Source: a virus. Taken from it: a stretch of DNA of 34,074 nt. The notes below the pieces were generated by a model. It had not been told where the DNA came from. It ran no database searches and saw only the letters and a program-made list of their open reading frames with translations. The translations under genes were made by a program, and so were the position numbers. Below, piece after piece: positions 128 to 34,008 of this stretch (its first letter is position 1; each line of letters starts with the position of its first letter). The DNA lies in the IMG/VR virus record IMGVR_UViG_3300029893_000043, positions 1-34,074 of that record. One strand, 5' to 3'.

Positions 128-544
128 TTACAGTCCAAGCGCCGCTTTTTGAGCGCGCCCCCACGCCCTACAGTCCTCGACATAGGCGTTGTAGGCCTCG
201 AACTCGGCCGATGGCGCCGTGCGCAGCAGCCTGATTTCGTCGCCTATCGAATACGCATCGGCGATCATCTCGGTGACACGCCGGTTGATCAGGTACACGT
301 GCGGGCTGGCCGCCTTGAGCGCTTCGCGCAGGCTATCGGTCAGCGTCACCGTCTCGATGCTGGCCGCGATCTCGGTGGGCTGATCGGCGGGCAAAGTCGC
401 GCCATCAGGCAGGCTGACATAGGTAATCCCATCCACAGTAGCGATCTCCTGCCCGAGCCGCTGGAGGCCGGCATCTTCCGGCAACTTGATCTCGCGAGTG
501 ATCTCGGTGGTGACGTGTTTGCGGTAGCTGATGATGGTTGGCAT
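128..544 (-). CDS. Small phage protein at the end of the DGR cassette
   Basis: This 138-aa protein has no recognised domain. The start is supported by a strong Shine-Dalgarno (AAAGGAG, about 9 bases before the ATG) that lies inside the reverse transcriptase coding region. It overlaps the last 140 bases of that gene in another frame. The sequence is mixed alpha/beta without membrane segments or signal peptide. It contains a TYVSLPDG stretch and a C-terminal region with paired Trp and Tyr residues (AYVEDCRAWGRA). Being the last gene next to a diversified tail-tip protein, it could be a tail-fibre assembly factor or another adhesin accessory, but this rests on position only. Confidence 0.7.
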   Translation of the reverse strand: MPTIISYRKHVTTEITREIKLPEDAGLQRLGQEIATVDGITYVSLPDGATLPADQPTEIAASIETVTLTDSLREALKAASPHVYLINRRVTEMIADAYSIGDEIRLLRTAPSAEFEAYNAYVEDCRAWGRAQKAALGL

Positions 545-1493
545 GGTGGTACTCCTTTAAGTAACGCAGCATGGGCTGCAGCGAATGGGTGCGGCGGGCA
601 TGCCCGAGTGACGAGGCAATGCTCGCCGCATCGCCGCGCTTGACGGACTGACGAAAGGTATAGAGGCTGTGCTTACGCACAAAACGCTTGCCGGCCCAGG
701 TGCGATAGCCGACAAAATTCACGCCGCGCGTCGCTCGGGCAATGCTCGACTTTGATAACTCCAGGCGCAGGCCGGTGATGAATTCAACGATCTTCCGCCG
801 TGCCGCCAGCGCCGACTTTTGGTTGAGGCCGAAGAGAATGAAGTCGTCGACATAGCGGCAGTAGCGCTCAATCTTCAATGTGCGCTTAATGAAATGATCG
901 AGCGGGTTGAGGTAGATCAGCGCGTAGAGCTGCGAGAGCAGGTTGCCGATGGGAATGCCCACCGGTTCGCCATGATCGGCAAACAGCATCATCAGATCGA
1001 CAAAGCGCCGACCCTTGATCTTGCGTTCGATCTGGCCGCGCAGGATGGCGTGGTCGATGCGGTAGAAGAACTTGCGGATGTCCAGTTTTAGTGTGTAGCT
1101 GTCGCGCGGGCAGGCTTGCAGGGCGGCCTGCGCGTAGTCGGCGGCCTTGTGGGTGCCGTAGCCGATGCGGCAGGCGAAGGATTGCGCGATGAAGCTGCGG
1201 TCGAAGATTGGCTCGACCACGGCATAGATAGCATGCTGCACCACCAGATCACGGAAGGCCGGCGCATAAATCTGGCGCGGCTTCGGCTCATAAACCATGA
1301 AGCTGAAGTACGGGCGCGGCCTGTAAGTGCCGTCCTGCAATTCGCGGTGCAGTGCATCGAGATTGCTGGCCAGATGCCGCTCATACTCAAAACAGGCCCG
1401 CTTGCCGTGCTTGTGGCGCGCGGCAGCATGGAAGGCCGCCAGCAACGCCTCTGGCGTGAAGGCTTTTTCGTAAAGGTAGCCAATGCGCTTCAT
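405..1493 (-). CDS. DGR reverse transcriptase
   Basis: This 362-aa retroelement reverse transcriptase copies the template RNA into adenine-mutagenised cDNA that replaces the variable repeat of the target gene. The catalytic aspartates are visible: LDIRKFF with Asp138, and YVDD at 214-217. The motif before the palm (IGNLLSQ, 182-188) has the SQ signature typical of DGR enzymes rather than the SQG of group II introns. There is no maturase or endonuclease domain. It sits downstream of avd and the template repeat in the canonical order. The start has only a weak ribosome-binding site. The last ~45 residues lie over the next gene in another frame and look low in complexity, so the functional enzyme probably ends near residue 315. 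Confidence 0.96.
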   Translation of the reverse strand: MKRIGYLYEKAFTPEALLAAFHAAARHKHGKRACFEYERHLASNLDALHRELQDGTYRPRPYFSFMVYEPKPRQIYAPAFRDLVVQHAIYAVVEPIFDRSFIAQSFACRIGYGTHKAADYAQAALQACPRDSYTLKLDIRKFFYRIDHAILRGQIERKIKGRRFVDLMMLFADHGEPVGIPIGNLLSQLYALIYLNPLDHFIKRTLKIERYCRYVDDFILFGLNQKSALAARRKIVEFITGLRLELSKSSIARATRGVNFVGYRTWAGKRFVRKHSLYTFRQSVKRGDAASIASSLGHARRTHSLQPMLRYLKEYHHANHHQLPQTRHHRDHSRDQVAGRCRPPAARAGDRYCGWDYLCQPA

Positions 1494-1635
1494 GTCGCCA
1501 GACCGTCGAGAATCAACCTACCAGAATGACGGAAGCACACCGATTTCGCCGTGGCCAACAAGCCGACCACGCGCCGGAAAGCATCTCCCTGAATTCCGCT
1601 GCGACCAAACGTCAGCCCTTGCGGCGAAATTGAGT
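1494..1635 (-). other. Spacer between template repeat and RT gene
   Basis: These 142 bases separate the template repeat from the RT start and have no supported gene. In characterised DGRs the RNA that primes and templates cDNA synthesis extends past the template repeat into this spacer, so it is probably a functional part of the DGR RNA. No ribosome-binding site of quality is visible ahead of the RT start codon, so the RT may be expressed weakly or by coupling. Confidence 0.6.
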
Positions 1636-1747
1636 CAGCCCGGAACGACACGTTGTTGTTCGCGTTCGACCGGACATTGTTGAGATTCAACGCCCAGACC
1701 CCGGCATTCGACGAGTTGTTCCAGTTGCCGCCTGAGATCGGACACAT
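1636..1747 (-). repeat. DGR template repeat (TR)
   Basis: This 112-bp segment aligns without gaps to 2197-2308 at the 3' end of the target gene, with 95 identities. Sixteen of the 17 differences fall at adenines of the sense strand (A to G 13 times, A to C twice, A to T once). The TR is rich in AAC/AAT codons, the codon type that gives the widest amino-acid choice without producing stops. It starts one base after the avd stop codon. The first 17 bases on the plus strand are identical in both copies and act as the likely initiation-of-mutagenic-homology boundary. Confidence 0.96.
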
Positions 1748-1748
1748 G

Positions 1749-2162
1749 TTAAGACGCCTCCCGTTGCTGCATTGCCTTGCGTTCGGCGGCAATCCATCCG
1801 CCGATCATCCTACCAAGCTCATCAATCATGCGCGAAAGCGCAAGATAACGATGCTCAGACAATTCCTTGCGCGACTTCTCCGATTTACTGCCATTCTCGA
1901 AGCCGAAATATCCCAGCTCAAACGCCAGCCTGACCAGCATCCGCAGCTGCTCATGGCGGATGTCGAGATTCGTCAGGCTGGCTTTTTTCTGGTAACGCTT
2001 CTGGCATTCCACGATGATCGAATACACGTCATAGGCAGCCCTGCGAATTTCAAGCGCAAGGCCGTAGCGTTCGTGCTTTGGGAAGTGACTCAAATACAAA
2101 TTCACTTGCTTAGCCAAGGCAATAAACTTTTGATCGAGTTTCGCTTCATCGTGCAACGCCAT
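1749..2162 (-). CDS. avd: Avd, DGR accessory variability protein (four-helix bundle)
   Basis: This 137-aa basic, almost entirely alpha-helical protein lies between the target gene and the template repeat. The family forms a pentameric four-helix barrel that binds the reverse transcriptase and the DGR RNA and is needed for mutagenic cDNA synthesis. Visible support: four amphipathic helical stretches, many Lys and Arg, length close to that of known Avd proteins (about 125-130 aa), and the conserved position. The ATG lies inside the 3' hairpin of the target gene, suggesting coupling to target translation. The C-terminus (ERKAMQQREAS) is followed immediately by the template repeat. Confidence 0.9.
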   Translation of the reverse strand: MALHDEAKLDQKFIALAKQVNLYLSHFPKHERYGLALEIRRAAYDVYSIIVECQKRYQKKASLTNLDIRHEQLRMLVRLAFELGYFGFENGSKSEKSRKELSEHRYLALSRMIDELGRMIGGWIAAERKAMQQREAS

Positions 2163-2185
2163 GATCTTCGCTATCGCTCAGATCA
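2162..2185 (-). promoter_or_regulatory. Hairpin just after the variable repeat
   Basis: A 6-bp stem (TGATCT with AGATCA on the sense strand) encloses 12 bases that contain a further small GC...GC pairing. It starts 11 bases after the variable repeat, overlaps the target stop codon, and ends on the avd start codon. In the BPP-1 phage DGR a hairpin or cruciform shortly downstream of VR raises retrohoming efficiency. The stem here is less GC-rich than that example, so the assignment is tentative. Confidence 0.5.
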
Positions 2186-3532
2186 CAAATAACAGGCAGC
2201 CCGGAACGACACGCTGTGGTACGCGTCCGACCGGGCACCGCTGAGATTCAACGCCCAGACCCCGGCACCCGACGAGGCGCCCCAGCCGCCGCCCGAGATC
2301 GGACACATTTCGTTCGGGTTGTAATCCCAGAAGCCATCGTTACCAAAGGCATTGGTCCCGCCGCCTCCTTCCGCCAGCATGATTCCCATGCCCGCTGCAT
2401 TCCACGCATTGCCGCTGCTCGCATCACTGAATACCTGGCTGGCACTGCCGTATCCGACCAAGCGATCGGCACCGGTCGCGCGCCAGACACCGTAGCTGCC
2501 GCCCAGATTGTCATAGAGCGCGGCGAGGCCGGCGGCTCCCCATAAGTCGGTCGCCAGCCCATTTCCTCCGGTCACATCCATCATTCGCGCCGCCGTCTTC
2601 ATCACGTAGAGGTTCGTTCCGTCGCTGGTGAGTCCGGGCGTGACCTCCCAGAATCCGCCGTTCTCGTCGGCGAAGCCACAGTTCTGTCCGTTGTCGGTCG
2701 TTCTGGCGAACAGGTTTGCGCTGCCGGTCTTCGGCGCATTGTAGGTTCCATTTCCGTCGCCGAGGTAGAGGATATCGGCATCCTGCGCGTCGCCGAGGGC
2801 GCCGTTGTTGCAGCCCTTGGGGAAATTGTTTGTTGGGCTATACCATGCGCAGTAGGTGGTACTATTTGCGGCCTGCGCCTGCGCCAACGCGACCCACGCG
2901 GCGTCCATCTTCATGGCGCGCGAGGCGACAAAGAAGTTCGCGCCGCGAGTCTTGGCGGCGGCGATGGCGCCGGCATAGTTGCCCGCTGGGGCTCCATTCA
3001 GACTGGCGAATGTGGCTGTTGACAGGCTTCCGCGTTGCGCGGACGTGATGACAACTCCATTCTTGACGCTCGACGCGACCCCGCCGTTGTTGCTGACCTT
3101 GTACTTGTCCCGGAAATAGCCTGGCTGAACGGCGCCGCCGTCCCAGAATGAGCGCGGCAGAAAATAGCCAGACGCGGCGGCGGTGGAAACGCTGCCGAAG
3201 TACCCGAACGGCTTGATGTCGATCTGGTTGACGGCGAGACCATTAGAGCCTGTGCCGTACTTGAGCCAGTACGCCGGCCGCCAGATCATGATCGAGCCGT
3301 CCGAATACATGTAGTTGCCGTAGTTGTCGTGTGTAGGATCGGTATACCCGAAGAGCGTGCCCATGCCGGCCGGCAACGGCCCAGGGCAAACACCGACGCC
3401 GAAGCCGGGCTGATTGGCGATGCCGATGTTGTTGATGCCGCCCGCCGCGCCGGCGCCGATCTGAATGCCGGTGGGGAACAGGACGGGCAGGCCGTCTTTG
3501 CCGGTGACGCTACGAAGATTGAGGTTGCTCAT
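2183..3532 (-). CDS. DGR target: variable tail-tip/receptor-binding protein
   Basis: This 449-aa protein carries the DGR variable repeat at its C-terminus (residues ~409-445), the usual site in C-type-lectin-fold DGR targets. Asn codons of the template appear here as Gly, Ala, Ser, Asp, Tyr and His at residues 416, 418, 419, 422, 431, 432, 436, 438, 439 and 440, while the scaffold (WALNL, VSFRA) is fixed. The C-terminal half is rich in Gly, Trp and aromatics, as in CLec/formylglycine-enzyme-like folds. The ATG at 3532 has a GGAG site and overlaps the preceding stop as ATGA. As the last large tail gene it is inferred to be the host-recognition protein. Confidence 0.93.
   Translation of the reverse strand: MSNLNLRSVTGKDGLPVLFPTGIQIGAGAAGGINNIGIANQPGFGVGVCPGPLPAGMGTLFGYTDPTHDNYGNYMYSDGSIMIWRPAYWLKYGTGSNGLAVNQIDIKPFGYFGSVSTAAASGYFLPRSFWDGGAVQPGYFRDKYKVSNNGGVASSVKNGVVITSAQRGSLSTATFASLNGAPAGNYAGAIAAAKTRGANFFVASRAMKMDAAWVALAQAQAANSTTYCAWYSPTNNFPKGCNNGALGDAQDADILYLGDGNGTYNAPKTGSANLFARTTDNGQNCGFADENGGFWEVTPGLTSDGTNLYVMKTAARMMDVTGGNGLATDLWGAAGLAALYDNLGGSYGVWRATGADRLVGYGSASQVFSDASSGNAWNAAGMGIMLAEGGGGTNAFGNDGFWDYNPNEMCPISGGGWGASSGAGVWALNLSGARSDAYHSVSFRAACYL
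2197..2308 (-). repeat. DGR variable repeat (VR)
   Basis: This is the 112-bp recipient copy of the template repeat, offset exactly 561 bp with no gaps. Of the 17 differences, 16 are at template adenines. The exception is a T to C (sense strand) opposite plus-strand position 1674, changing Val in the template reading to Ala433. The 3' end of VR coincides with the last shared bases before the two copies diverge, 14 bases before the stop codon begins at 2185. Confidence 0.96.
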
Positions 3533-3987
3533 AGAATGCTCCAAATCGAGTGATCGTTCAGGGTGACTTCAACGCCCTCGCCGATGGTCAGCGGCCCGGC
3601 GGAATAGGCGTTGTAGCCGGAAGGGATGGCGAAGGCCTCGGTGATGGTGGAGGGGTTCATGCGCGCCGCCAGGTTCATGTCTAGGTTCGCCGCCAGGGCG
3701 GCGGTCCAGGCGGCGACCGCGCCGTCGCGCGCCTCTTCCGCCGCCGCCTGCGCCGCCTCGGCAAGACCCTGCGCAGTGACGGCATTGCCGGCTTGCGTGG
3801 TGGCGATGCCCGCCTGCGTGGTGGCGATGCCGGCTTGCGTGGTGGCGATGCCCGCCTGCGTGGCGGCGGTGGCAGCCTGTGTCTGCGCGTCCTCGCCGGC
3901 CGCCACCGCCGCCAGGTACTGATCATGCAGTTGATTGAGCTTGGTGATGTAGTCCTTGTCGCCAACCGAAAACAGGGGATCGCTCAT
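3529..3987 (-). CDS. Short Ala-rich tail-fibre-like protein with tandem repeats
   Basis: This 152-aa protein has a helical N-terminus, then a central block of 7-residue repeats (ATTQAGI type) followed by an Ala/Glu-rich stretch that should form a coiled coil, and a small C-terminal beta-like region (TIGEGVEVTLNDHSIWSI). The C-terminal motif resembles the short trimeric tips found in many phage fibre-associated proteins. A strong GGAGGAA ribosome site precedes the ATG. It overlaps both neighbours by 4 bases and lies directly before the DGR target gene, so it is probably a structural stalk or connector for the variable protein. That role is inferred. Confidence 0.75.
   Translation of the reverse strand: MSDPLFSVGDKDYITKLNQLHDQYLAAVAAGEDAQTQAATAATQAGIATTQAGIATTQAGIATTQAGNAVTAQGLAEAAQAAAEEARDGAVAAWTAALAANLDMNLAARMNPSTITEAFAIPSGYNAYSAGPLTIGEGVEVTLNDHSIWSIL
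3790..3873. repeat. Four 21-bp tandem repeats in the fibre-like gene
   Basis: Four consecutive 21-bp units occur at 3790-3810, 3811-3831, 3832-3852 and 3853-3873. Units 1 and 3 are identical, unit 2 differs at the first and fourth bases, and unit 4 is more diverged. They encode the heptad-like ATTQAGI repeats. Copy number changes would keep the reading frame and alter stalk length. Confidence 0.85.
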
Positions 3988-4838
3988 GATTCCTCCAGGG
4001 TTAAGGAAGTCTGGTGAACGCCGAGGTAGCGATGGGTCATCGCGCTGTCGGCACTGAGCCTACCGAAGAGCATGTGCATCTGCTCCTCGCGGGGATCGGG
4101 ATCGTCGGGGTAGAGACTGACCAGCACCTGGCCCTGCAGGCCGTAGTCGCGCAGGATCGACCAGCACATGGTGCGGTCGTGCGGGGTCATCCAGGACAGG
4201 TCGATGCTCAGGCTGCGGCCGCGTGCCTGCGCGTCGACGAACTGGTCGCCGCCGCCGCCGCGCGCGTGGCGGCTGCCGTCGCGCAGGCCGACCTTGGCGC
4301 CCCAACTGTGGTTGTAGTCGGGTTGCCAGTAACGGCCGACGATGATGCGGCCTGCCTCGATGTAGCCGTCCGGGTTGGTGGCATCGTTCAGATCGATGAC
4401 CAGCTTGCGCACGGCTGTGTGCGCAAGCCAGGCGCGGGCATAGGCGCCGCCGCCCTGGGCGAAGGTATTGGCGCCGCCGCGCCGGTAGATGTTGGGAGCG
4501 AGCGGCTCGACGCCCCACCAGCCACCGTCGATAGGCGCCGGTGGCGCGGCGAGGATGGCGCCACTATCGACGGCCGGCGCGGCATCGTCCGGCAGGGTGT
4601 AGCCGCGCACGCGGATGGTCGCGGCCGAGGTGATATTGCAGAACGGCAGGGCCACGCCACCGATGATCTCGGGCGTCGGCCAGGTGAGCGTCAGCATTGC
4701 GGCGGTGCCCGTGGCGCGCCATACGTCGGTTTTCATGTTGGTGAGCAAACGGTCGACCGTGCGCGTGCCGGCCGCGCTGCTGGCGGCGAGCGTGGCGCGA
4801 TAGGCCGCGTTGTCGAAGATGACGCGCATGCGGCTCAT
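3984..4838 (-). CDS. Tail-tip protein of Mu-like siphophages
   Basis: This 284-aa protein was started at the ATG at 4838 because that codon begins the conserved-looking MSRMRVIFDN segment; the frame is open further upstream but without a good start. It is a beta-rich virion-type protein. A central AGRIIVGRYWQP stretch is followed by PDDPDPREEQMHMLFGRL near the C-terminus. Similar proteins sit in the tail-tip clusters of B3- and D3112-type transposable siphophages, between the tail hub and the fibres. It has no signal peptide or membrane segment. The exact position in the tail is not known from sequence. Confidence 0.75.
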   Translation of the reverse strand: MSRMRVIFDNAAYRATLAASSAAGTRTVDRLLTNMKTDVWRATGTAAMLTLTWPTPEIIGGVALPFCNITSAATIRVRGYTLPDDAAPAVDSGAILAAPPAPIDGGWWGVEPLAPNIYRRGGANTFAQGGGAYARAWLAHTAVRKLVIDLNDATNPDGYIEAGRIIVGRYWQPDYNHSWGAKVGLRDGSRHARGGGGDQFVDAQARGRSLSIDLSWMTPHDRTMCWSILRDYGLQGQVLVSLYPDDPDPREEQMHMLFGRLSADSAMTHRYLGVHQTSLTLEES

Positions 4839-4845
4839 GGGGGTG

Positions 4846-5088
4846 TCAGCCGCGCCGCGCGATGCGCAGCCCGACCTCCGCCAGACGCGCGTCGATCTGT
4901 GCGAGCAGCGCGTCGTCGAAATCAGCATCCACCAGCGGCTCGACGACGTGCGTCTGCGCGCCGGCGATCTCGACGCCGTCGTCGTCCGCCAGCGTCACCA
5001 CCTTGGCGCCAGTGACCGGGGCGAGGTGGCCGCCGAAGGGACCGGTAAAGTTGATGGTGAGATTGACGTGCTTGACGGTTTTTTTCAT
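4846..5088 (-). CDS. Small tail-cluster protein, function unknown
   Basis: This 80-aa protein has an AGGAG ribosome-binding site that overlaps the stop codon of the preceding gene. It is acidic in the second half, with a beta-type first half (TINFTGPFGGHLAPVTG). No domain is recognised. Its place between two tail-tip genes and the short spacing on both sides suggest a structural or assembly role in the tail tip. Confidence 0.7.
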   Translation of the reverse strand: MKKTVKHVNLTINFTGPFGGHLAPVTGAKVVTLADDDGVEIAGAQTHVVEPLVDADFDDALLAQIDARLAEVGLRIARRG

Positions 5089-5097
5089 GGTGAACTC

Positions 5098-6147
5098 CTA
5101 GATCCAGTAAGGAAGCTTGATCGCGCCGGTGCCACCGGACTGAGACGCGACGTTGAGGGTCAGCCAGCCCGTCGGTGCCTTGATGCTCCAACCGCTGCCG
5201 CCAGGGCTGGAGGCGGTGTTGTTGATGAACACGACGATGTTGTTGACCGGATGGCCGGTGCCGACGGTGCAGCCGCCGGAGATCAGTCCGGAGTTGTGAG
5301 GCCCGGACAGGCCGCCGGCGTTGTCCGCGCTCGCGGCCTCGGCCGCTCTCAGGTTGACGCAGGTCAGGCCGTTCGCGACCGGCACATTTCCCGCCGCGTT
5401 TCCGGCATGACGCCCGTCGAGCAAGTCTGCATTGAGGTTGGCCACCACCTGCGTCGAGCTGATGGTCATGAGCCCCGCGACCTGCAGGGCTACCCCGGTT
5501 GCGCTGTAGGCGGCCACACCAGGGCCGGACCCCGCGTTGTATCCATACACCCCGGCGCCGCTGCCGTATGCCTCGCCTTTGACGGCATGTCCACTCGATG
5601 TATTGACGCCAAGCACGCCACTGCGAGACGAATTGGCAATGCCGGCCACGCCCTCGGCGACGCCAGCAGGCATGCCGAGCACCGCAGCCTGATAACCGCC
5701 GCCACTGACCGATCCGGTCGCCTTTAAACTGCCCGCCGTGTTGACGTTGCCGGCGAATGTACCGTTGCACCCGGAGATGTCACCTTTGAACGCGAACACC
5801 CCACCAGCCAGGTCGATCACCAGCTTGGTCTCGCCGCCGTATTTGTAGATCGCGCCGGCATCGTGGTAGGCGTACCCGGTGCCACTGGCGTAGCCGCTGC
5901 TCTGCTGTTGGAACCCGCTGCCGGTGATGGTCGTGGCCGACTTGCTGATCTTGTCGGAGAGGCCGGCGAGCGCGCTGGTGCCGTTCGCGGCGCCGTCGCG
6001 CACGGTCGCCGCCGATGTACCGGCGATGGTGCCGGTGACGTTGCCCGAGACGGTGCCGCCCCAGGTGATCGACGTGCCGACCGTTACCGGCACCAGGCGC
6101 GTAGCGCCCTGCAGGAGCACATCGCGGGCATTGACGACGATGGCCAT
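5098..6147 (-). CDS. Gly/Ala-rich tail-tip or fibre protein
   Basis: This 349-aa protein begins with the ATG that overlaps the previous stop by one base (TGATG). The frame is open upstream, but the upstream part is the antisense-like shadow of the neighbouring gene. Residues 1-110 (VLLQGATRLVP, then a Gly/Thr/Ser-rich segment) resemble the C-terminal tip segment of phage central tail fibres. The middle is a Gly/Ala/Ser/Val-rich repetitive beta region. Residues ~240-260 contain NLNADLLDGRHAG, a motif seen in many phage tail fibres. The C-terminus has more aromatic residues (SGWSIKAPTGWLTL). Confidence 0.82.
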   Translation of the reverse strand: MAIVVNARDVLLQGATRLVPVTVGTSITWGGTVSGNVTGTIAGTSAATVRDGAANGTSALAGLSDKISKSATTITGSGFQQQSSGYASGTGYAYHDAGAIYKYGGETKLVIDLAGGVFAFKGDISGCNGTFAGNVNTAGSLKATGSVSGGGYQAAVLGMPAGVAEGVAGIANSSRSGVLGVNTSSGHAVKGEAYGSGAGVYGYNAGSGPGVAAYSATGVALQVAGLMTISSTQVVANLNADLLDGRHAGNAAGNVPVANGLTCVNLRAAEAASADNAGGLSGPHNSGLISGGCTVGTGHPVNNIVVFINNTASSPGGSGWSIKAPTGWLTLNVASQSGGTGAIKLPYWI

Positions 6148-7616
6148 CAGACGAGCACCTCGACAGTCGCGCGGCGCTTGAGCCAGTCGCGCGTTACAGC
6201 GACCACCTGGCCAGGCTTGCCGGCGGCCAGGTTGTAACGCCGGCTGGTGAGCGTGACCCCGGCGCCGAGGGCCAGCAGCATCTTGTGCGGGCCACAGGGG
6301 CGGCGGTAGACGTGCCGCTGTACGCCCCACAGGGCCTGGCGCCGGTCCGCCTCGGCCTGCGCATCGGCGGCGACGAGGAGCATGGTCTCCTGCATCGCCG
6401 GCTCGGCATAGGTCTGGTAGTCGGCCTGCGCGGTCGCGTCGATGCTGGTCGCGGTGAGCCATTCCTGCGCATAGAGGGCGCGATGCTCCGCCGGGATGCC
6501 ACCCTGGACGGTCTGCACCGTCCAGTTGCGGCAATAGCCGAGCTTGACGGCCACCTGCACCGCCGGACGCGCGGCGATCTCGATCTCGCCGTCGACGGCG
6601 TCCTCGTCGGCGATCACCTCGCCGCCGCCGCTCGGGATATCGACCTGGGTAATCTGCAACTTGCCGAGCGGCGAGAAATGCACTTGCGCGCCGACGCTGG
6701 CGGTGAGCGCACGGCAGGCGTCGATGACGTTGGTGCGGTCGGGGCACCACAGGCCGACCGGCATCAGGTTGTCCGCGTCGAAGGCGGCGAAGCTGGCCGC
6801 GTCGATCTCGCTCGCAGCCAGCCGGCCGTCCGCCGTGCCGTAGCCGGTGACGATGCGCTGCACCAGGGTGGCGATGGTGTCGCGATACACGCCGCCGGAC
6901 TTGTCGCCCTGGACGCTGACGGTCAGGTCGGACACCAGATTGGCGGCGAGCGCGAACGTGCCGGCGGCGAGGTTGTTGCTGCCGCCGACCGGCACGCCGC
7001 CGTCGCGGCGCTCGATGACGCCCTCGATGGCGCCGCCGTGCACCTGATAGGTGAGCGTGGCCGGATCGACGAGCACCGGCGTGACGTTGTGGCACTCGCC
7101 GAAACAGAGCGGCACGGTGGCGTCCTTGTTCGGGCCGGTACCGCCGATCTTGGCCTCGGTGAGCGGCGCGTTGAGGCGCTGCATGTTGTCGCGCAGCTTG
7201 AGGTTGAGACGATCGGGCGCGCTGCTGTCGAGATCGTCGATGGTGCCGGCGAAGACCGGGCGGAAGTCGGCGCGCGGCCAGCTCGCATCGCCGACGAACA
7301 TGGCGATGGGCCGATTGCGCCAGATGCCGCCGAGCAGGTAGTCTAAAAAACCATCGGTGTTGTCGATCCCCACGTCGCCCCAGGCGATGGAGGCATCCGA
7401 GCCGTCGAGGGAGAGCCGCTCGCCGATGGTGCAGCCGCCGACGATGCGCGGCAGGTAGCACTCATTGGAGGGCGTTTCGCCGGTCTTGGTCGTATAGCCC
7501 ATGTCCGAGATGTTGAGCACCGTCTCGATGCCGTCGAGGCGCACGCCGGCCTCGACCAGCACGACCGGGCGCGCGTCAGGCGACGAGAGCCAGGCGAGGA
7601 ATTCGGCGTCCGTCAT
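6147..7616 (-). CDS. Tail hub/tail-tip structural protein
   Basis: This 489-aa protein overlaps the tape measure stop codon (ATGA) and follows it immediately, the place of distal-tail and hub proteins. The N-terminus (RPVVLVEAGVRLDG) and the following WGDVGIDNTDG segment resemble tail proteins of transposable siphophages. A segment near residue 230 has a VYRDTIATLVQRIV helix, and the C-terminal third is beta-rich with GKPGQVVAVTRDW. It has no enzymatic motif. It is most likely a hub component that connects the tube to the tip, by position and composition. Confidence 0.78.
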   Translation of the reverse strand: MTDAEFLAWLSSPDARPVVLVEAGVRLDGIETVLNISDMGYTTKTGETPSNECYLPRIVGGCTIGERLSLDGSDASIAWGDVGIDNTDGFLDYLLGGIWRNRPIAMFVGDASWPRADFRPVFAGTIDDLDSSAPDRLNLKLRDNMQRLNAPLTEAKIGGTGPNKDATVPLCFGECHNVTPVLVDPATLTYQVHGGAIEGVIERRDGGVPVGGSNNLAAGTFALAANLVSDLTVSVQGDKSGGVYRDTIATLVQRIVTGYGTADGRLAASEIDAASFAAFDADNLMPVGLWCPDRTNVIDACRALTASVGAQVHFSPLGKLQITQVDIPSGGGEVIADEDAVDGEIEIAARPAVQVAVKLGYCRNWTVQTVQGGIPAEHRALYAQEWLTATSIDATAQADYQTYAEPAMQETMLLVAADAQAEADRRQALWGVQRHVYRRPCGPHKMLLALGAGVTLTSRRYNLAAGKPGQVVAVTRDWLKRRATVEVLV

Positions 7617-10600
7617 ACCAGCGCCGGCGCGGAGCGCGCCGCCCAGGATTGCGTTTTTGCGGCGGCGATCTGGCCGTCGACGATGGTCTGCGCCGAGCGC
7701 TGGCTGCTCTCGACAGTGGCGGCGATCTGACCGGCCAGCAGGCGCTCCAGCGCCGTGCGCAGGGCGACCACCTCGGACCGCAGCGCGGCAAGCTCGGCGC
7801 TGTTGTCCGAGCCCAAGGCGCGCACGCCAAGGGAACCGCCGATATTGACCAGCGGCATGATCGCTTCTGGCGTGCGCTCGCCCATCACGTCGCGATTGAA
7901 GTAGGTCGGCCGCGTGACGATGCCGTTGGTGAACACGCCGCCATCGGCGAATGCCATGCCGTCCCCGATGCCAAGGCCGCGCAGCTCATCGACGATGCGC
8001 GCGATCACCGTCTGGGTGATGTCGCTAGACGCGCTGTAGCCCTTCTGCGCCTCGACGTAGGCGCGGGCATCGCCGACCAGCCGGTCGACGTTGTCGTAGT
8101 TGCCGGCGGCGGCCTGCTGGCGCACCTGGTCGAGCGATGCGTAATAGGCCGAGCGCGTGTTGCCGAGCAGCGCCTCCGGCGTGGCCAGGCCGCCCTGGTT
8201 GATCGTCAGGTCGCGCACGAGATCGGCGATGTCCTCGCCCGCCGCGCGCGATGCGGCGGCCAGGGCCTTATAGCTGGCCGTCGTATCGTCCATCAGCGAC
8301 GACCAACCATCGAACAGCGTCTCGACCTGGGCGATCCGTTCGGCGTTACCGAACGGGTCCGCCCGCAGCGCCTCAAGGTACTCCTGCACCTCATCCCTGG
8401 TCGGCAGCTTGGCGAGATTGGTCCCAAGCACGGCGTTGGCCTGCGCGAGCCAGCTCGCCTCGGTGAGCGTGCCCAGCCGGCCGAGCATCGCGTCGACGGA
8501 GGCATTGGCGGCGGTGGCGATCTGCGCGAAGGCAGGCGCGACCTTGACCAGGGCGGCGTAGGCATCGGCGCTCTCGTCGCCGAGCGCCACGACCACGTCT
8601 TCCATGCTGCGGAGGTCGGCGACCGTGGCCGGCGTGGCGACATTCCAGCGGGCGAATTCGCCGCGCACCTGCGCGACCGAGTAGGCGAGTTTTTCCGACT
8701 CGGTCCGGGTGGCGTCGTAGTAGGCGGAGAGTCCGCTGGCCAGCGCGTCGGCGCCGCCGAAGCGGTCGGCCAGGTCGAGGCCGACCTTGTAGATGTCGAG
8801 GCCGAGCTCGTCGAAGACCGGCTTGAGGTTGGCCACCGCCGCGAACTCGACGATGTCGGCCGTCATGTCCTGGAACGACTTGCCGACGTTGCCGGCCTGG
8901 GCGAGGTACTCGTCGAGCCAGCCGCCCTGGAGCGCGGCGAGGATCGCATTGGCCTGGTCGTCGGCCATGCCTTCGAGCAGATCCCGTGTCGCGGTTTGCG
9001 ACTTGTCCAGGTAGGCATCAACTACCGGCGACAAGTCGATGCCGCGCAGGGCCTTGAGCAGTTCGGCGGGGATGTCGGCGGCGAACTCTGACATGCCGGC
9101 CGCCATGTCCTTCGCGTAGCGCGCGCGGAATTCGTATATCTCGCGATTGTCGGCGCCGGCGACGCCAAGGCGGCCGCGCGTCGGGTCTTCGCCATCGCCG
9201 GAAAACGCCAGACCCACGGCGTAGTCGCGGCCGGCGCCGTAACGGCTGGTGATGCCGTTGAGGGTGGCCGCCAATCCCTGCGCCATCGCGCCGAGGGACT
9301 TGGACACCTCGGCGTTGTTGCGCTTCATCCAGTCGGATTCCGCAAACTGCCAGGTGCCGGACGTATCGACAAAATTGGCGTTGATGTCCGCCCAGGTCTT
9401 GGGCGTAGTGTAGCCGGTCCCCTCCGAGAACGCCACGCCGCCGGCGTGCGGCGTGCCACCCTTGCCCATGCCGGAGAGCAGGCTGATCGCAGCGACGACG
9501 GCGGCGGCATAGGGGGCGGCGGCGGCGAGGGAGGACACCGCGCCAGCTCCAGCCGCACTACCTGTCGCCGCCGCCGCGGACGCACCAGCGCCCACCGCGC
9601 CAGATGCCAGGCTGGCGCTCGGCCCGACGAAGCTCGACCCGAGCGCCAGCTCGGATGCCATCGACGCCGCGCCGGCCGAGAAGCCGCCAAGCATGCCGCC
9701 GCCGGTGAACATGTTGTAGGCGCTGTTGCCCGCAGAGAGCAGGTTCATCCCGCCGCCCACCGTGCCGCCAGCGCCGACATTTCCGCCGAAGCCGAGGGCG
9801 TTCATGCCGAGATTGACCACGCCCTGGATCACCGGGCGGAACACCAACGTCTTGAAGTAGTTTTCCAGCAGCTCGCCGGCGCCCTTGCCGCCCTTCATCA
9901 GCTCGTCGGTCAGGCTGCGGCCGAGGTCTTCGTGGATGCGCTCCCAGTATTTCGCCTCCTCGTCGGCGACCTTCTTCGCCGCGTCAAGCGCGTCTTTCTG
10001 GTCTGCGCCGGCGGCGAGGCGCTGGCGCGCAGCGATCTCGCGGTCGAGGAAGGCCAGGTGCTCCGGCCAGGCGCCGTTCTGGGCGGCGATGGCCCGCGCT
10101 TCCTCCAGGCGCGCCAGGGCGGCGGCCTGGATCGCGGCCTCGGTCATGCCGTAGGTCTCGACCTCGCGCTCCAGGCGCGCGGCCTGATCTTCCAGCGGCG
10201 CGATCATGGACTGGACGGCGTCGGCGTGGAGCTGCGCGGCGGCGACGGCCTCCTGCTCGGCGGCCGTGCGCTTTTCGATCAAGAGCGCGCCGGCGAGCAG
10301 CTTCTCCAGTTCTTGCGCCTGCGCCGCCGTGAGCGTGGCGCGCGCCGTCGCCAGCGCCGCCTGGACCGGCAGCAGCTTGCGACCGGCGACCGCCTCTAGC
10401 TCGATGCCGCGCGCCAGCTTGATGGCGGCCTCGTACTGCTGGGCATAGGACTTGGCCTGCTCGCCGGCGGCGTCGACAAAGCCCTCGTCGACCTTCTTCT
10501 TGCCCTTGTATTTGTCGTTGATGACCTGAAGCTTGACCTGGTACTCGCTGGCCAGGCGCAGTTGCAGATCCGCATTGCCTTTGATCTTCGCGGCCTCGGC

Positions 10601-12040
10601 GACATAGGCCTTGTCGAGCTCCGCTATCTCGGCGGCGCGCTGCTGCGCCTTGGTCCGATGCAGGCCGCCCCAGGCTTCCGAGATGCTGGCGACGGTCTTC
10701 GTCTCCATCGCCTCGACTTTGGCCAGGTATTTCTCCAGCGCGACGATTTCCTTGATGGTCTCGTCGAGTTCGCGCGGCTCGAAAATGCCGGGTAACTCGG
10801 CATTCAGCTTGTCGAGCCTCTCTCTGGCGGCCGCCACGTCGCCATCGCCGTACTTGCTGCGCCGCTCCAGATCGGCAAGCGCCTGGGACGCATCGAAGGC
10901 CTTCTTTCCTGCCGCGTCGGCTTCGTTCCCCCATAGTGCCCACGCCGTAACGCCGACCGTCAATGCAGTTGTCACCAGGCCGATGGGGCCGCCCAGCGCT
11001 CCAACGACGGCGCCGGCCGCGCTGGCCTTCGTCGTGGTCGTGGCAATCGCCATGCCCAGGGCGTCGTACTGCACCGCGGCCGCGCGTGCCGCGGAGGCCA
11101 GCGCCAGCGTCTCGATGCGCGCCGCAGCCGCCTTGCCGAGATAGCCGCCCAAGCCAACGGCGGTGACCATCGAAGCCGTTGCGACAACACCGTCGAACTG
11201 TTCCGCCACTACAGCCAGAGAGGAGGCCAGCACGGCCGATGCGCCGGATGCCTTGTCTGCCTGACCAACGTAGCGCAGGGCGGCGCTTTCGACGTTTTGC
11301 CAGGCCCCGGAAATGGTCGGCGTCAGGTCGGCGAACTGGCGGGCGATCTCCGGCGCCTGCTTTTCGAGGGCGGCAACGATCTCCTGTACCGTTATGGCGC
11401 CCTGTTCGCCCAGGGCACGCAACTCGCCCGTGGTCTTGCCCATGCCCTTGGCGATGGCCTCGGCCAGCGCCGGGGTTTGTTCCATCACGCTGTTGAGCTC
11501 GTCGCCGCGCAGGGTGCCGCTGGCCAGCGCCTGGCCGAACTGCATGATGGACGCCTTGGCGCTCTCCGCGCTGGCGCCGGACAATGCGACAGACTGGCTG
11601 ATGGTCTCGGTCAGGCCGATGATGCGCTGCTGCGACAGGCCAAGCGTATCCGCGCCCTTGGCCACCTTGTAATACAGGTCGCCGGTCGCATCCAGCGCCT
11701 GGCGCGTCCGCTGCGAGATCTGAAACACAGCATCCGACGCGCGCTGCTGCTCGTAGAGGCTAGCCGTAACCAGTCGAAGACGCGAATCGAGGTTCGTCAT
11801 CGCGTCGGCGCTGCGCACGGTATCGCGCAGCAAGCCAGCGCCCAGCCCGATGCCGGCCAACGTCGCGGCGCCGCTGGCAACACGCCTGATCGAGGCATCG
11901 AGGCGATCTATCTGCGCAACGACACCCTGAGCGGTCTTGCCGATCTCCCCCATGGCAGCATTCGTCTTGCCAGCCTCGACAACCGCCACCCGTCCATCGG
12001 CGGTGATGCGGATGCCGAATTCCATCGTGCGGTTTCTCAT
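7613..12040 (-). CDS. Tail length tape measure protein
   Basis: At 1475 aa this is the longest gene here, directly after the G/GT chaperone, the standard place for a tape measure. Residues ~60-250 match the conserved tape-measure N-terminal domain (LRDTVRSADAMTNLDSRL, then TGDLYYKVAKGA and LRGDELNSVMEQTPALAEAI). Hydrophobic segments near residues 350 and 840 suggest membrane insertion during DNA ejection. Long Ala/Glu/Lys/Arg coiled-coil stretches occupy residues ~380-700. The C-terminus has the FADGGVFTNGIVTRPT motif common in tape measures, followed by a coiled coil. At ~1.5 Å per residue this would suggest a tail of roughly 220 nm, a rule-of-thumb estimate. Confidence 0.95.
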   Translation of the reverse strand: MRNRTMEFGIRITADGRVAVVEAGKTNAAMGEIGKTAQGVVAQIDRLDASIRRVASGAATLAGIGLGAGLLRDTVRSADAMTNLDSRLRLVTASLYEQQRASDAVFQISQRTRQALDATGDLYYKVAKGADTLGLSQQRIIGLTETISQSVALSGASAESAKASIMQFGQALASGTLRGDELNSVMEQTPALAEAIAKGMGKTTGELRALGEQGAITVQEIVAALEKQAPEIARQFADLTPTISGAWQNVESAALRYVGQADKASGASAVLASSLAVVAEQFDGVVATASMVTAVGLGGYLGKAAAARIETLALASAARAAAVQYDALGMAIATTTTKASAAGAVVGALGGPIGLVTTALTVGVTAWALWGNEADAAGKKAFDASQALADLERRSKYGDGDVAAARERLDKLNAELPGIFEPRELDETIKEIVALEKYLAKVEAMETKTVASISEAWGGLHRTKAQQRAAEIAELDKAYVAEAAKIKGNADLQLRLASEYQVKLQVINDKYKGKKKVDEGFVDAAGEQAKSYAQQYEAAIKLARGIELEAVAGRKLLPVQAALATARATLTAAQAQELEKLLAGALLIEKRTAAEQEAVAAAQLHADAVQSMIAPLEDQAARLEREVETYGMTEAAIQAAALARLEEARAIAAQNGAWPEHLAFLDREIAARQRLAAGADQKDALDAAKKVADEEAKYWERIHEDLGRSLTDELMKGGKGAGELLENYFKTLVFRPVIQGVVNLGMNALGFGGNVGAGGTVGGGMNLLSAGNSAYNMFTGGGMLGGFSAGAASMASELALGSSFVGPSASLASGAVGAGASAAAATGSAAGAGAVSSLAAAAPYAAAVVAAISLLSGMGKGGTPHAGGVAFSEGTGYTTPKTWADINANFVDTSGTWQFAESDWMKRNNAEVSKSLGAMAQGLAATLNGITSRYGAGRDYAVGLAFSGDGEDPTRGRLGVAGADNREIYEFRARYAKDMAAGMSEFAADIPAELLKALRGIDLSPVVDAYLDKSQTATRDLLEGMADDQANAILAALQGGWLDEYLAQAGNVGKSFQDMTADIVEFAAVANLKPVFDELGLDIYKVGLDLADRFGGADALASGLSAYYDATRTESEKLAYSVAQVRGEFARWNVATPATVADLRSMEDVVVALGDESADAYAALVKVAPAFAQIATAANASVDAMLGRLGTLTEASWLAQANAVLGTNLAKLPTRDEVQEYLEALRADPFGNAERIAQVETLFDGWSSLMDDTTASYKALAAASRAAGEDIADLVRDLTINQGGLATPEALLGNTRSAYYASLDQVRQQAAAGNYDNVDRLVGDARAYVEAQKGYSASSDITQTVIARIVDELRGLGIGDGMAFADGGVFTNGIVTRPTYFNRDVMGERTPEAIMPLVNIGGSLGVRALGSDNSAELAALRSEVVALRTALERLLAGQIAATVESSQRSAQTIVDGQIAAAKTQSWAARSAPALV

Positions 12041-28685: not shown

Positions 28686-29279
28686 TCAATTCGCCCGAAT
28701 GCGCGGGTAAAGATGTCCGCGTACGCTGGCTTCCGCCCGACCCAGGGCGCGGGCAATCGCCCGGACGCTCTCGCCGTCCGCGACCATGTCGCGCATCCTG
28801 GCCTTCTCGTCGTCGGTGAAGGGGCGCGGTTTGGCGTGGGTCTTTCTCCCCTGCGCCTCCAGATGCGCCACCTTCGTCCGCAGCAGGTCGATGTATTCGT
28901 CCTTGGACACGGCGATGGTGCCGTCGCCGGCCAGTGCCGGGCGCTGCAATAACGCGGCCTCCATGTCGTTGAACGCCGCAATGAACGCTTCCTTGCGCCG
29001 CGCCGCCTCGGCGCCAGTGAAGCCCATCGTCAGGAACATGAAGCCGTCGCGGGTCATTTGGTATTCCAGCGACTTGATCGCGGCGCCACCGCTCGGGTTT
29101 GCGCGCTCGGCGACCGTCTCGCCAAAATTGGCTAGACGGAATCCCTCGCTGCAATCGAGGTTGCGGATGGAGCGCAGCACCTTACCGTGTTCCTTGTTGA
29201 ACACCCCCGCGACGATGCGCGAGGATGTGAGGGACTGCGGCTTGCCGGCCAGGTGGCCGGAAAAGACCTGGATGTTCAT
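28686..29279 (-). CDS. Rha-family phage regulatory protein/antirepressor
   Basis: This 197-aa protein has an N-terminal Rha domain: SSRIVAGVFNKEHGKVLRSI, FRLANFGE, YQMTRDGFMFLTMGFTG and KEAFIAAFNDMEA. The C-terminal part has RTKVAHLEAQGRK coiled coil and a helix-turn-helix with FTDDEKARMRDMVADGESVR, then AIARALGRAEASVRGHLY. Rha and antirepressor proteins with this domain affect lysogeny decisions. The ATG overlaps the upstream 78-aa ORF (ATGA), so its translation depends on that ORF. A C4-like RNA lies upstream, as in the P1 c4-icd-ant operon. Confidence 0.88.
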   Translation of the reverse strand: MNIQVFSGHLAGKPQSLTSSRIVAGVFNKEHGKVLRSIRNLDCSEGFRLANFGETVAERANPSGGAAIKSLEYQMTRDGFMFLTMGFTGAEAARRKEAFIAAFNDMEAALLQRPALAGDGTIAVSKDEYIDLLRTKVAHLEAQGRKTHAKPRPFTDDEKARMRDMVADGESVRAIARALGRAEASVRGHLYPRIRAN

Positions 29280-29512
29280 GCTGCGGCTCCTTTCTGAAGG
29301 GTGGCGAGGCGGCGATCGATCCGACGCAGCAGCTTGAGCATTTCGGGCTCGCCGGCGGGTTTTGCGGAGGCGAAGGCTTCGCGGACGGCCGCGAGCTTGT
29401 CCTCCGGGGTGTCGTGGGTCTTGACCCAGATGTAGGCGGCACGCATCAGATGCGCGTAGGGATTGGCCGGCGCGGGCCGGGGACGAACAGGGAAGGGAAT
29501 GACGGTGCACAT
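29276..29512 (-). CDS. 78-aa leader ORF coupled to the Rha gene
   Basis: The ATG at 29512 has a GAGGAG site 7 bases upstream. The protein (FPVRPRPAPANPYAHLMRAA, then HDTPEDKLAAVREAFASAK and LLRRIDRRLATLQKGAAA) has a Pro-rich N-terminus and helices. The frame is open upstream to 29782, but that region covers a structured RNA and a terminator-like hairpin, so the shorter start is preferred. Its stop overlaps the Rha start. It takes the place of icd in the P1 immunity operon. Confidence 0.7.
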   Translation of the reverse strand: MCTVIPFPVRPRPAPANPYAHLMRAAYIWVKTHDTPEDKLAAVREAFASAKPAGEPEMLKLLRRIDRRLATLQKGAAA

Positions 29513-29530: not shown

Positions 29531-29638
29531 GCGGTTGTCGAACCGCCTGCCCCCGACCAAGAGGGTGGGCGGAACCGTGCGGGTTGGTCGACCGGTCTGA
29601 GGGCCGGCAGGGCCGAAGCCCTCCCGCACGGCCCGCCC
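29531..29638 (-). ncRNA. C4-like phage antisense RNA candidate
   Basis: On the minus strand a long stem pairs 29623-29638 with 29567-29583 (GGGCGGGCCGTGCGGG with CCCGCACGGTTCCGCCC, one-base offset). It encloses a hairpin with a UUCG tetraloop (29609-29622). After it comes another hairpin, GCGGTT CGAC AACCGC (29531-29546), directly before the ribosome site of the leader ORF. Conserved phage C4 RNAs, which repress antirepressor synthesis in P1/P7, have this kind of layout and the GGTTCGACAACC motif. The match is from memory of the family, not a covariance search. Confidence 0.55.
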
Positions 29639-29659
29639 AAAGGACGTGCCAGTGCGCGC

Positions 29660-29689
29660 AAAAAAGCCGCGACTAGTGACGGCGCGGCT
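29660..29689 (-). terminator. Terminator-like hairpin upstream of the C4-like RNA
   Basis: agccgcg (29665-29671) pairs with cgcggct (29683-29689), and six T follow on the minus strand (plus-strand A-run 29660-29665). It lies between the early genes and the C4/Rha unit. The remaining gap, 29690-29808, holds a ctgccg/cggcag stem at 29722-29739 and a TTGACA (29771-29776, minus) that could be a -35 box, without a clear -10. Confidence 0.6.
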
Positions 29690-29808
29690 GTGCGCCTCAG
29701 ATACCGGGCGACCAAGCCCGACTGCCGGATTTACGGCAGCGGGGCGATGATGCGCCCGGAAGAATTTAGTTGTCAAGCTCATGCCGATGAAATGACTAAA
29801 TAACCGAA

Positions 29809-32661: not shown

Positions 32662-33286
32662 AGATCGCGTCCTCCTCGGTAACGGGCTTCACCCAGACGG
32701 TCTTGCCGAGGTTGGGGTCGTAGATCGCGTCGGCGCGGCAGATCATCGGCGGCAGCGGGCCGGTGTTGCTGATCAGCCGGTATCGCGCCTGGCTGGCGTG
32801 GGCGCCGGCCTTGCCGGGCTTCGTGCAGTCCATGTAGCCGGCCAGATGCAGATTGCGCAGATAGTCGCCGGCGGCGGCCTCTTGCACGGGGATCGCTACC
32901 GTGCTGGCGTGTGCCGCCAGTTCGCGGGCGTTGGTGTCGCCCTTGAGCATGCGCAGCGTGCGCCACATCTGCTCCTGGGCAAACCCCATCGTGACTAGCG
33001 TGCCGTCCTTGCGCACGCGCGGGGCTTCGACGCCGGCGTCGCGCGCCAGCACGTAGCGCCGCACGCGCGCGGCGGCATGGGCGCCGGGGCGGTCGCCGGC
33101 CGGGGCGAGGTAGCCGGCTTTTTCCAGTCCCTGCAGGTAGGTGCGCGCGGTGCCGGTATCGACGTCGCCGGGAATGACTTCAAGGCGCTCGAAGGGCTGG
33201 CCGCGCGTGGCGCGAATCAACTCCCACACGCGCTGGCGCGGGCCCTTGCCGCCGTCAAGTTCGAGGGGGGCGGGTTTGCGCGACAT
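32654..33286 (-). CDS. Double winged-helix protein after MuB
   Basis: This 210-aa protein was started at the ATG that overlaps the MuB stop (TGATG). Two similar winged-helix-like units are visible: RQRVWELIRATRGQPFERLE with TARTYLQGLEKAGYLAP, and EQMWRTLRMLKGDTNARELA with AAAGDYLRNLHLAGYM. The C-terminus is basic and ends with GKTVWVKPVTEEDAIYG. It is probably a DNA-binding regulator or replication accessory. No enzymatic motif is seen. Confidence 0.72.
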   Translation of the reverse strand: MSRKPAPLELDGGKGPRQRVWELIRATRGQPFERLEVIPGDVDTGTARTYLQGLEKAGYLAPAGDRPGAHAAARVRRYVLARDAGVEAPRVRKDGTLVTMGFAQEQMWRTLRMLKGDTNARELAAHASTVAIPVQEAAAGDYLRNLHLAGYMDCTKPGKAGAHASQARYRLISNTGPLPPMICRADAIYDPNLGKTVWVKPVTEEDAIYG

Positions 33287-34008
33287 CAGCACCCCTCCGG
33301 CAGATCGCGGGTCGGCGCCTGGCCGGTGTAGAGCGGCGTGTCGCCCCAGGTTTTGCGGTCGATGCGGCGCCAGCCTTCGGCGGCCGCCATCTCTGCCGCG
33401 CGCGCCAGATTGACGCTGACGCGCCGCACGCTGCCGCCGCTGTGAGCGACCAGGTGGTCGAGAAAGTCGTCGTCGCACTTGGTCTCGCAGTAGATCGGCG
33501 CCAGCTCGCGGGCGTCGGCGACCGAGACCGGCGCGGCCGGTATCCACGACAGCACGCGGCTATGGAATCGCTCCCACCGCGCGAGCTTCCTGGGCAGCAG
33601 TTCCTCGCCGGCGAGCACCATCGATGCCTGACTGCCTTCGTAGATGTCGCGCACCAGTTCGACCATGCTGTCGCCCTTGAGGGCGAAGTCGAATTCGTCG
33701 ATGATCAGCGGCCGCCGGCTGCCGGCGAGCTGGGTGCAGATGTCGTCGAGCATGCGCGCGATGGTGCCCTGCGGCTTCAAGCTCATCTCGAAGAGAATCT
33801 TCTCCAGCAGGGCCTTGCGGCCCCACGCCGAGCGCATCTGCACGTAGTAGGCGCGGCTGGCGTTGGCCACGGCCACCAGCGCCGTGGTCTTGCCCCAGCC
33901 GGCCGGGGCATAGAGCACGCCGAGGCCGGGCAGGCCGGCGGCGCGGCCGTTCAGCGACTCCAGCGCGGTGCGCACCAGGGTCAGGTTCTGGATGTTGGCG
34001 GTTTTCAT
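33286..34008 (-). CDS. MuB-like AAA+ ATPase (transposition target activator)
   Basis: This 240-aa ATPase has Walker A APAGWGKT (34-41) and Walker B LIIDEFD (101-107), then VLAGEELLPRKLARWERFHS with an Arg-rich sensor region and a helical C-terminal part (DDDFLDHLVAHSGGSVRR). MuB binds DNA with ATP and delivers the target to the MuA transposome. An AAGGAG site lies 10 bases before the ATG. It marks the phage as transposable. It is shorter than Mu B (312 aa), lacking an N-terminal HTH extension. Confidence 0.92.
   Translation of the reverse strand: MKTANIQNLTLVRTALESLNGRAAGLPGLGVLYAPAGWGKTTALVAVANASRAYYVQMRSAWGRKALLEKILFEMSLKPQGTIARMLDDICTQLAGSRRPLIIDEFDFALKGDSMVELVRDIYEGSQASMVLAGEELLPRKLARWERFHSRVLSWIPAAPVSVADARELAPIYCETKCDDDFLDHLVAHSGGSVRRVSVNLARAAEMAAAEGWRRIDRKTWGDTPLYTGQAPTRDLPEGC

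Follow-up and report, generated by a model that had tools for sequence, protein, structure and literature searches.

A BPP-1-type diversity-generating retroelement, most likely functional, and an associated fifth gene near the right-hand end of a Mu/D3112-like siphophage

We analysed IMG/VR virus record IMGVR_UViG_3300029893_000043 over its whole length of 34,074 bp (the window), which is a viral contig and not a fragment of a host genome. Near the right-hand end of the phage we identified, with high confidence, a diversity-generating retroelement (DGR) of the BPP-1 type, most likely functional and carried by a Mu/D3112-like siphophage. All of its parts lie on the minus strand, in the order target gene (449 aa, 2183–3532), hairpin, Avd (137 aa, 1749–2162), template repeat (TR, 115 bp, 1633–1747), spacer (139 nt, 1494–1632) and reverse transcriptase (RT, 405–1493), and the variable repeat (VR, 115 bp, 2194–2308) occupies the extreme C-terminus of the target. 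The initial annotation had described positions 128 to 3987 as a complete DGR with target, Avd, TR and RT in canonical order; all of these parts were present where it had placed them, with their motifs intact, while a fifth gene (138 aa, 128–544) and a tail gene upstream of the target (3529–3987), which fall in the same span, had been left undiscussed. No second VR or second target was found within the window, and an Rfam scan gave no match over the DGR itself.

The two repeats, which are 84% identical, aligned without a gap over 115 bp and differed at 18 positions, 17 of them adenines in the TR (26 adenines of 115 bp; hypergeometric P = 5.9e-13). The only other difference, T in the TR and C in the VR, changes Val to Ala at codon 25. 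Ten of the 11 Asn codons were changed in the VR, to Gly (four), Ser (two), Ala, Asp, Tyr or His, as the initial annotation had listed, and its count of 16 of 17 differences at adenines over 112 bp is what this alignment of the repeats gives when its final 3 bp, at which the TR reads GACT (1636–1633) and the VR reads GCCT (2194–2197, minus strand), are left off. Fourteen VR codons are able to vary and none of them can turn into a stop, which gives a potential protein space of about 4e14, a figure that still includes the fixed last codon.

The RT matched the PHROG reverse transcriptase family (E 1.1e-101) and Pfam RVT_1 (4.3e-16), its conserved core spans approximately the first 330 residues, and it carries an intact YVDD together with the DGR-type GNLLSQ; the catalytic Asp residues, whose inactivation the initial annotation had named as grounds for rejecting the proposal, are therefore in place. 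Its best PDB match was 8ub7 ('Reverse transcriptase', E 8.5e-50), the RT of BPP-1. Avd, which adjoins the TR and the RT, was recognized by Pfam as bAvd (2.7e-16) and by PHROG as 'Avd protein of DGR' (2e-23). We also observed that the last 140 bp of the RT gene (405–544) are shared, in a different frame, with the fifth gene; the RT match stops earlier in many relatives, so that the C-terminal RT residues may not be needed, or the overlap may serve translational coupling.

A search with the RT retrieved 322 related stretches in viral contigs, 80 of which were kept, and 73 in genomes. A scan for adenine-biased repeats detected a TR upstream of the RT in 115 loci (the window and L001, a copy of it, are among them), usually at about 250 bp, with the VR at about −800. 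Since the scan favours A mismatches, the locus-wide proportion of mismatches at A (1689/1770) is biased and was not relied on. We compared seven sets of near-identical relatives that share identical RT and TR sequences, with a single TR difference in one set. The VRs differed in 451 of 838 pairwise comparisons at TR-adenine positions (54%) and in 10 of 2910 at other VR positions (0.3%), and the flanks differed in 21 of 8748 comparisons over the 300 bp upstream and in 9 of 49,500 over the 1500 bp downstream. The rate at TR adenines was thus about 160 times that at other VR positions, although pairs inside one set are not independent. The same TR with different VRs, which the initial annotation had proposed to look for in relatives, was therefore found in several contig sets, and the absence of adenine-specific VR variation, which it had given as a reason to abandon the proposal, was not what we observed. 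The DGR is active in this lineage, and, judging from these relatives, it is most likely active in the window phage itself.

The GACT/GCCT difference at the end of the repeats was common to 104 of the 115 loci. Because of this wide occurrence it appears to be a lineage-wide fixed boundary mark and not a fresh mutation, and it looks like an initiation of mutagenic homing (IMH) mark; in BPP-1, the differences between IMH and IMH* sit where the GACT/GCCT mark sits here.

Directly after the VR we found a 24-nt hairpin on the minus strand (TGATCT-GA-GC-GATA-GC-GA-AGATCA, 2185–2162) that begins with the stop codon of the target and ends on the A with which the Avd start codon opens; its loop, GATA, at 2175–2172, is of the GRNA type. 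According to the BPP-1 hairpin description, homing requires a hairpin with a GRNA loop within 24 bp after the VR, and the stems are 7–10 bp long, GC-rich and unbroken (PMC3240598). The window hairpin has a GA/GA internal loop and an AT-rich outer part in place of such a stem. A GC-GRNA-GC tip was present in 98 of the 115 loci, flanked by GA on both sides in 72 of those, and these flanks would form tandem G·A pairs as an internal loop between the tip and the outer stem. The internal loop was found in most relatives, and in other loci the stem is unbroken. The BPP-1 hairpin description (PMC3240598) does not mention the G·A form, which may be reported elsewhere. The outer stem was kept by compensation, with a mean of 5.8 pairs as compared with 3.6±0.17 when the 3' flanks were shuffled among loci, a test in which the related loci are not independent; in the window the outer stem (TGATCT/AGATCA) pairs perfectly. 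The spacer between TR and RT also showed conserved structure, with predicted hairpins in the template RNA. Two conserved elements of 12 pairs each were 87% and 95% paired, as compared with shuffle means of 64% and 85%, and 8 and 6 of their pairs, respectively, showed double changes (covariation). RNAalifold on the whole spacer alignment had given a weak consensus because the variable loops misalign, and splitting the alignment into the conserved elements worked.

A Pfam scan of the target returned no domain. An AlphaFold2 model built from 44 relatives had a mean predicted local distance difference test (pLDDT) of 87, with residues 419–421, which are part of the VR, below 50. The model superposed on TaqVP, the variable protein of a Thermus aquaticus prophage DGR (5vf4, PMC6328139), with Z 30.0 and 3.0 Å over 302 residues, and on Mtd of BPP-1 with Z 11.9; a profile match to 5vf4 was also obtained (4.4e-8). 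The target is thus predicted to have a C-type lectin/formylglycine-generating enzyme (CLec/FGE) fold, like these two solved DGR variable proteins. TaqVP is the closest solved structure and likewise carries its VR at the extreme C-terminus, although sequence identity is 20% over the aligned part, which does not cover the N-terminal ~57 residues of the target. Homologues of the target were present in 105 of the 115 loci. Because the target is the last large tail gene, variation of its VR most likely alters host-receptor binding.

The fifth gene has a good ribosome-binding site (AAAGGAG), and its open reading frame stops 127 bp short of the contig end. Its homologues follow the RT in 85 of the 115 loci, the others being cut off there or belonging to more distant groups, and RT-bearing relatives that lack it include Bise, a Pseudomonas phage described below, and the Campylobacterota loci. 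A search with the fifth gene itself returned 80 loci, in 71 of which the RT was present and in nine absent. In eight of these nine, target sequence was found upstream, truncated at the contig start in two cases; the ninth contig begins too late to show it. What is left of the DGR core differs among them: some 15 Avd codons fused to the tail of the RT in L163; more of Avd, together with RT residues 279–315, in L204 and L206; the hairpin and the start of Avd in L178 and L179; and almost nothing in L173, L175 and L182. The Avd-TR-RT core has therefore been lost repeatedly from phages through different deletions, with target and fifth gene retained. Since both genes were retained through different deletions, the fifth protein is probably a partner of the target and not of homing, and it would most likely be a tail-protein chaperone or assembly partner. 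That the fifth gene instead encodes a further homing factor of the DGR is rather unlikely; such a factor would explain why the gene follows and overlaps the RT in those 85 loci, but not the RT-less loci with a target upstream and the core deleted or absent, nor the Bise and Campylobacterota loci that have an RT without it.

No named family was found for the fifth protein. Its AlphaFold2 model was confident (pLDDT 95.9) but gave no clear PDB match. Pfam and PHROG scans of 21 members gave stray single matches only (for one member, 'tail assembly chaperone' at 0.01), a Foldseek search of the model against the PDB gave nothing at E ≤ 0.001, and the best VIA-align hit (Z 6.3) covered the helical part only and was not trusted. 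Among viral models one match, A0A516LIE3 (E 9e-6), was obtained. No homologue was found in 50,697 annotated phage records, and tblastn detected no counterpart in BPP-1.

Two of the RT-less loci, L204 (positions 1–1304) and L206 (1540–2843), have one deletion junction in common and match exactly on either side of the VR; within the VR itself, however, they differ at 18 positions, and at 13 of these most TRs of the family have an adenine. These differences may reflect recombination or diversification in trans. Junction scans for more RT-less members of this kind found none further, and the VR differences between L175 and L182 are not of the DGR type. As a joint proposal, which we put forward tentatively and with some doubt, the product of the 138-aa gene would be a dedicated partner, not described before, that acts as a chaperone or assembly factor for CLec receptor-binding proteins diversified by DGRs, the core would be a deletable insert between target and partner, and some RT-less loci (L204 and L206) may still be diversified in trans.

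The Mu-like character claimed in the initial annotation was borne out by a MuB-like DNA transposition protein (33286–34008, minus strand, PHROG 8.1e-62), Gam-like (1e-9) and Mor/C-like (9e-27) genes, a Mu-type portal (5e-164) and other head genes. MuA (PF09299) gave no match in the window, which ends beside MuB, and was present in the related contigs G012 and G014; its absence is as expected if it lies beyond that contig end. The siphophage assignment was supported as well: there was no match to the tail sheath family PF04984 in the window, a tail tape measure protein of 1475 aa was found (7613–12040, minus strand, PHROG 8.2e-88), and the closest named isolates by major capsid protein were Pseudomonas phages such as H70, which is of the D3112 type. 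The gene content supports a sheathless Mu/D3112-like siphophage. The word prophage goes further than the 34-kb viral contig allows, as it carries no verified host sequence. The nearest RTs in genome bins belong to Rhodocyclales/Rhodocyclaceae (75–78% identity), and for this reason a betaproteobacterial host is likely.

Related cassettes were found on other backbones. Among 18 larger contigs, 17 with this DGR and the RT-less L163, a Mu-type portal was detected in five, a MuA C-terminal domain in two and a tyrosine integrase in 12; a tail sheath (PF04984) was found in three of 23 tested contigs. The window proteins further upstream (3984–4928, 4922–5770 and 6147–7616) had homologues in at most five of the 115 loci, as compared with 105 for the target. 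Because the backbones differ and the upstream proteins are rarely shared while the target is, the Mu pairing is one of several settings of the same cassette, which include Mu-like, integrase-type, sheathed and sheathless phages.

Following the BPP-1 model, the TR transcript, folded through the spacer and bound by Avd, would be copied by the RT with misincorporation at template adenines, and the cDNA would replace the VR at the C-terminus of the target, with direction and target site set by the GCCT/GACT mark and by the GRNA hairpin that immediately follows the VR. The outcome would be a binding surface of predicted CLec fold, varied at up to 14 codons without stops, and this tail-end variation would most likely change host-receptor binding; the fifth protein, given its retention after loss of the core, would most likely serve folding or assembly of the variable protein and not homing. 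Several points weigh against this interpretation. The activity of the window phage is deduced from its relatives, the outer hairpin stem is AT-rich and an AT-swapped stem worked poorly in the BPP-1 hairpin study (PMC3240598), and MuA and the left end are missing from the contig. In addition, the receptor-binding role of the target is something that we infer, and the partner role of the fifth gene is argued from gene order and retention, with neither a named family nor a clear fold match.

The AT-rich outer stem TGATCT/AGATCA, in which the window differs from most relatives, would also fit a DGR that was active in the past but has fallen silent in this phage, its VR a frozen past product and its stem no longer supporting homing, and relatives that kept target and VR after loss of the core do exist. 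We nevertheless consider this highly improbable, since no reading frame is interrupted, both RT motifs (YVDD and GNLLSQ) are preserved, the hairpin is in register with TR and VR, and the outer stem pairs without a mismatch. An ordinary duplication of the target 3' end that drifted without retro-homing would likewise leave an 84% identical repeat of 115 bp, but it can be dismissed for practical purposes given the adenine bias and the presence of RT and Avd, and the rate ratio among near-identical relatives effectively refutes it for the lineage.

Among known systems, the DGR of Bordetella phage BPP-1 (mtd-avd-TR-brt) shares with the window the order target-Avd-TR-RT, adenine-specific TR/VR differences, a GRNA hairpin after the VR and a CLec/FGE-fold target, and the two RTs are related (~38% identity). 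In contrast, BPP-1 has a podophage backbone and an unbroken hairpin stem where the window has the G·A internal loop, and its VR of 134 bp contains a run of (GC)14 and an IMH of 21 bp with five mismatches, as compared with a 115-bp VR and one fixed mismatch here. A global survey recorded more than 30,000 DGRs in six lineages, three of which occur chiefly in phages and have tail targets and CLec folds (PMC8144416).

The initial annotation had called the pairing of a DGR with a transposable siphophage uncommon. The pairing is present, but its novelty does not stand, as DGRs in Mu-like or transposable-type phages are already known from Hankyphage, YPCBV-1, Bise and BalMu-1, and the window is a good new example and no new kind of system. 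Hankyphage of Bacteroides, which is transposable and Mu-like, has a long flexible tail of the siphovirus type and carries a DGR (PMC6199706), shown to be active in culture and in virions (PMC12135933), with 117-bp repeats and 14 adenine mismatches (PMC6199706, PMC12135933). It differs from the window in host phylum and in that its VR ends a large protein (residues 2188–2225), and its RT was not among the closest RT relatives listed for the window. Pseudomonas phage Bise (OR683401) has a transposable-type genome with the DGR near the right end, the closest RT among annotated phages (58%) and TR/VR mismatches at A in nine of nine cases; unlike the window it has contractile-tail genes (sheath, baseplate), no fifth gene, and a DNA adenine methylase gene after the RT. 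In the record of this sheathed P. aeruginosa phage, the only products named at the locus (L084:35606–37825) are a reverse transcriptase and a four-helix bundle protein. Bacillus phage BalMu-1 and the published Mu-like DGR phage YPCBV-1 of Chromohalobacter (PMC9769972) are likewise Mu-like, the RT lies close to the right end in both and their TR/VR pairs are A-biased, but their RTs are 36–40% identical to that of the window and their annotated baseplate genes (XkdT, gp46/gp47) indicate myophage-type tail modules.

With the window, a D3112-type siphophage joins the small number of transposable phages in which DGRs are known, and together with its relatives it represents a cassette lineage that is large, evidently active, found mainly in Proteobacteria and spread over several phage backbones. 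Two small structural additions to the known cassette architecture, both specific and testable, are the fifth gene and the hairpin with its G·A loop, and a surface that is varied at 11 Asn codons yet needs to fold would be a natural case for a dedicated partner protein.

Other features were noted around the cassette. The tail gene upstream of the target (152 aa, 3529–3987, minus strand) matched PHROG tail fiber (2.8e-6), and its C-terminus resembles phage tail fibre ends; at 3776–3880 it contains 21-bp tandem repeats of at least four units, encoding a repeated, stalk-like AGIATTQ. Between the fifth gene and the contig start, at 19–115, repeated motifs resembling TTGGCACAG and TTGCGCAATA may be sites where the transposase binds the right end of the phage, and the TG at 19–20 could be the phage terminus. 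On the minus strand, Rfam detected adjacent C4 antisense RNA (61.4 bits, 29561–29644) and isrK (57.7 bits, 29660–29740) just upstream of a Rha/Ant-like regulator gene (28686–29510), together forming a P1/Gifsy-type module for antirepressor control within a Mu-like phage.

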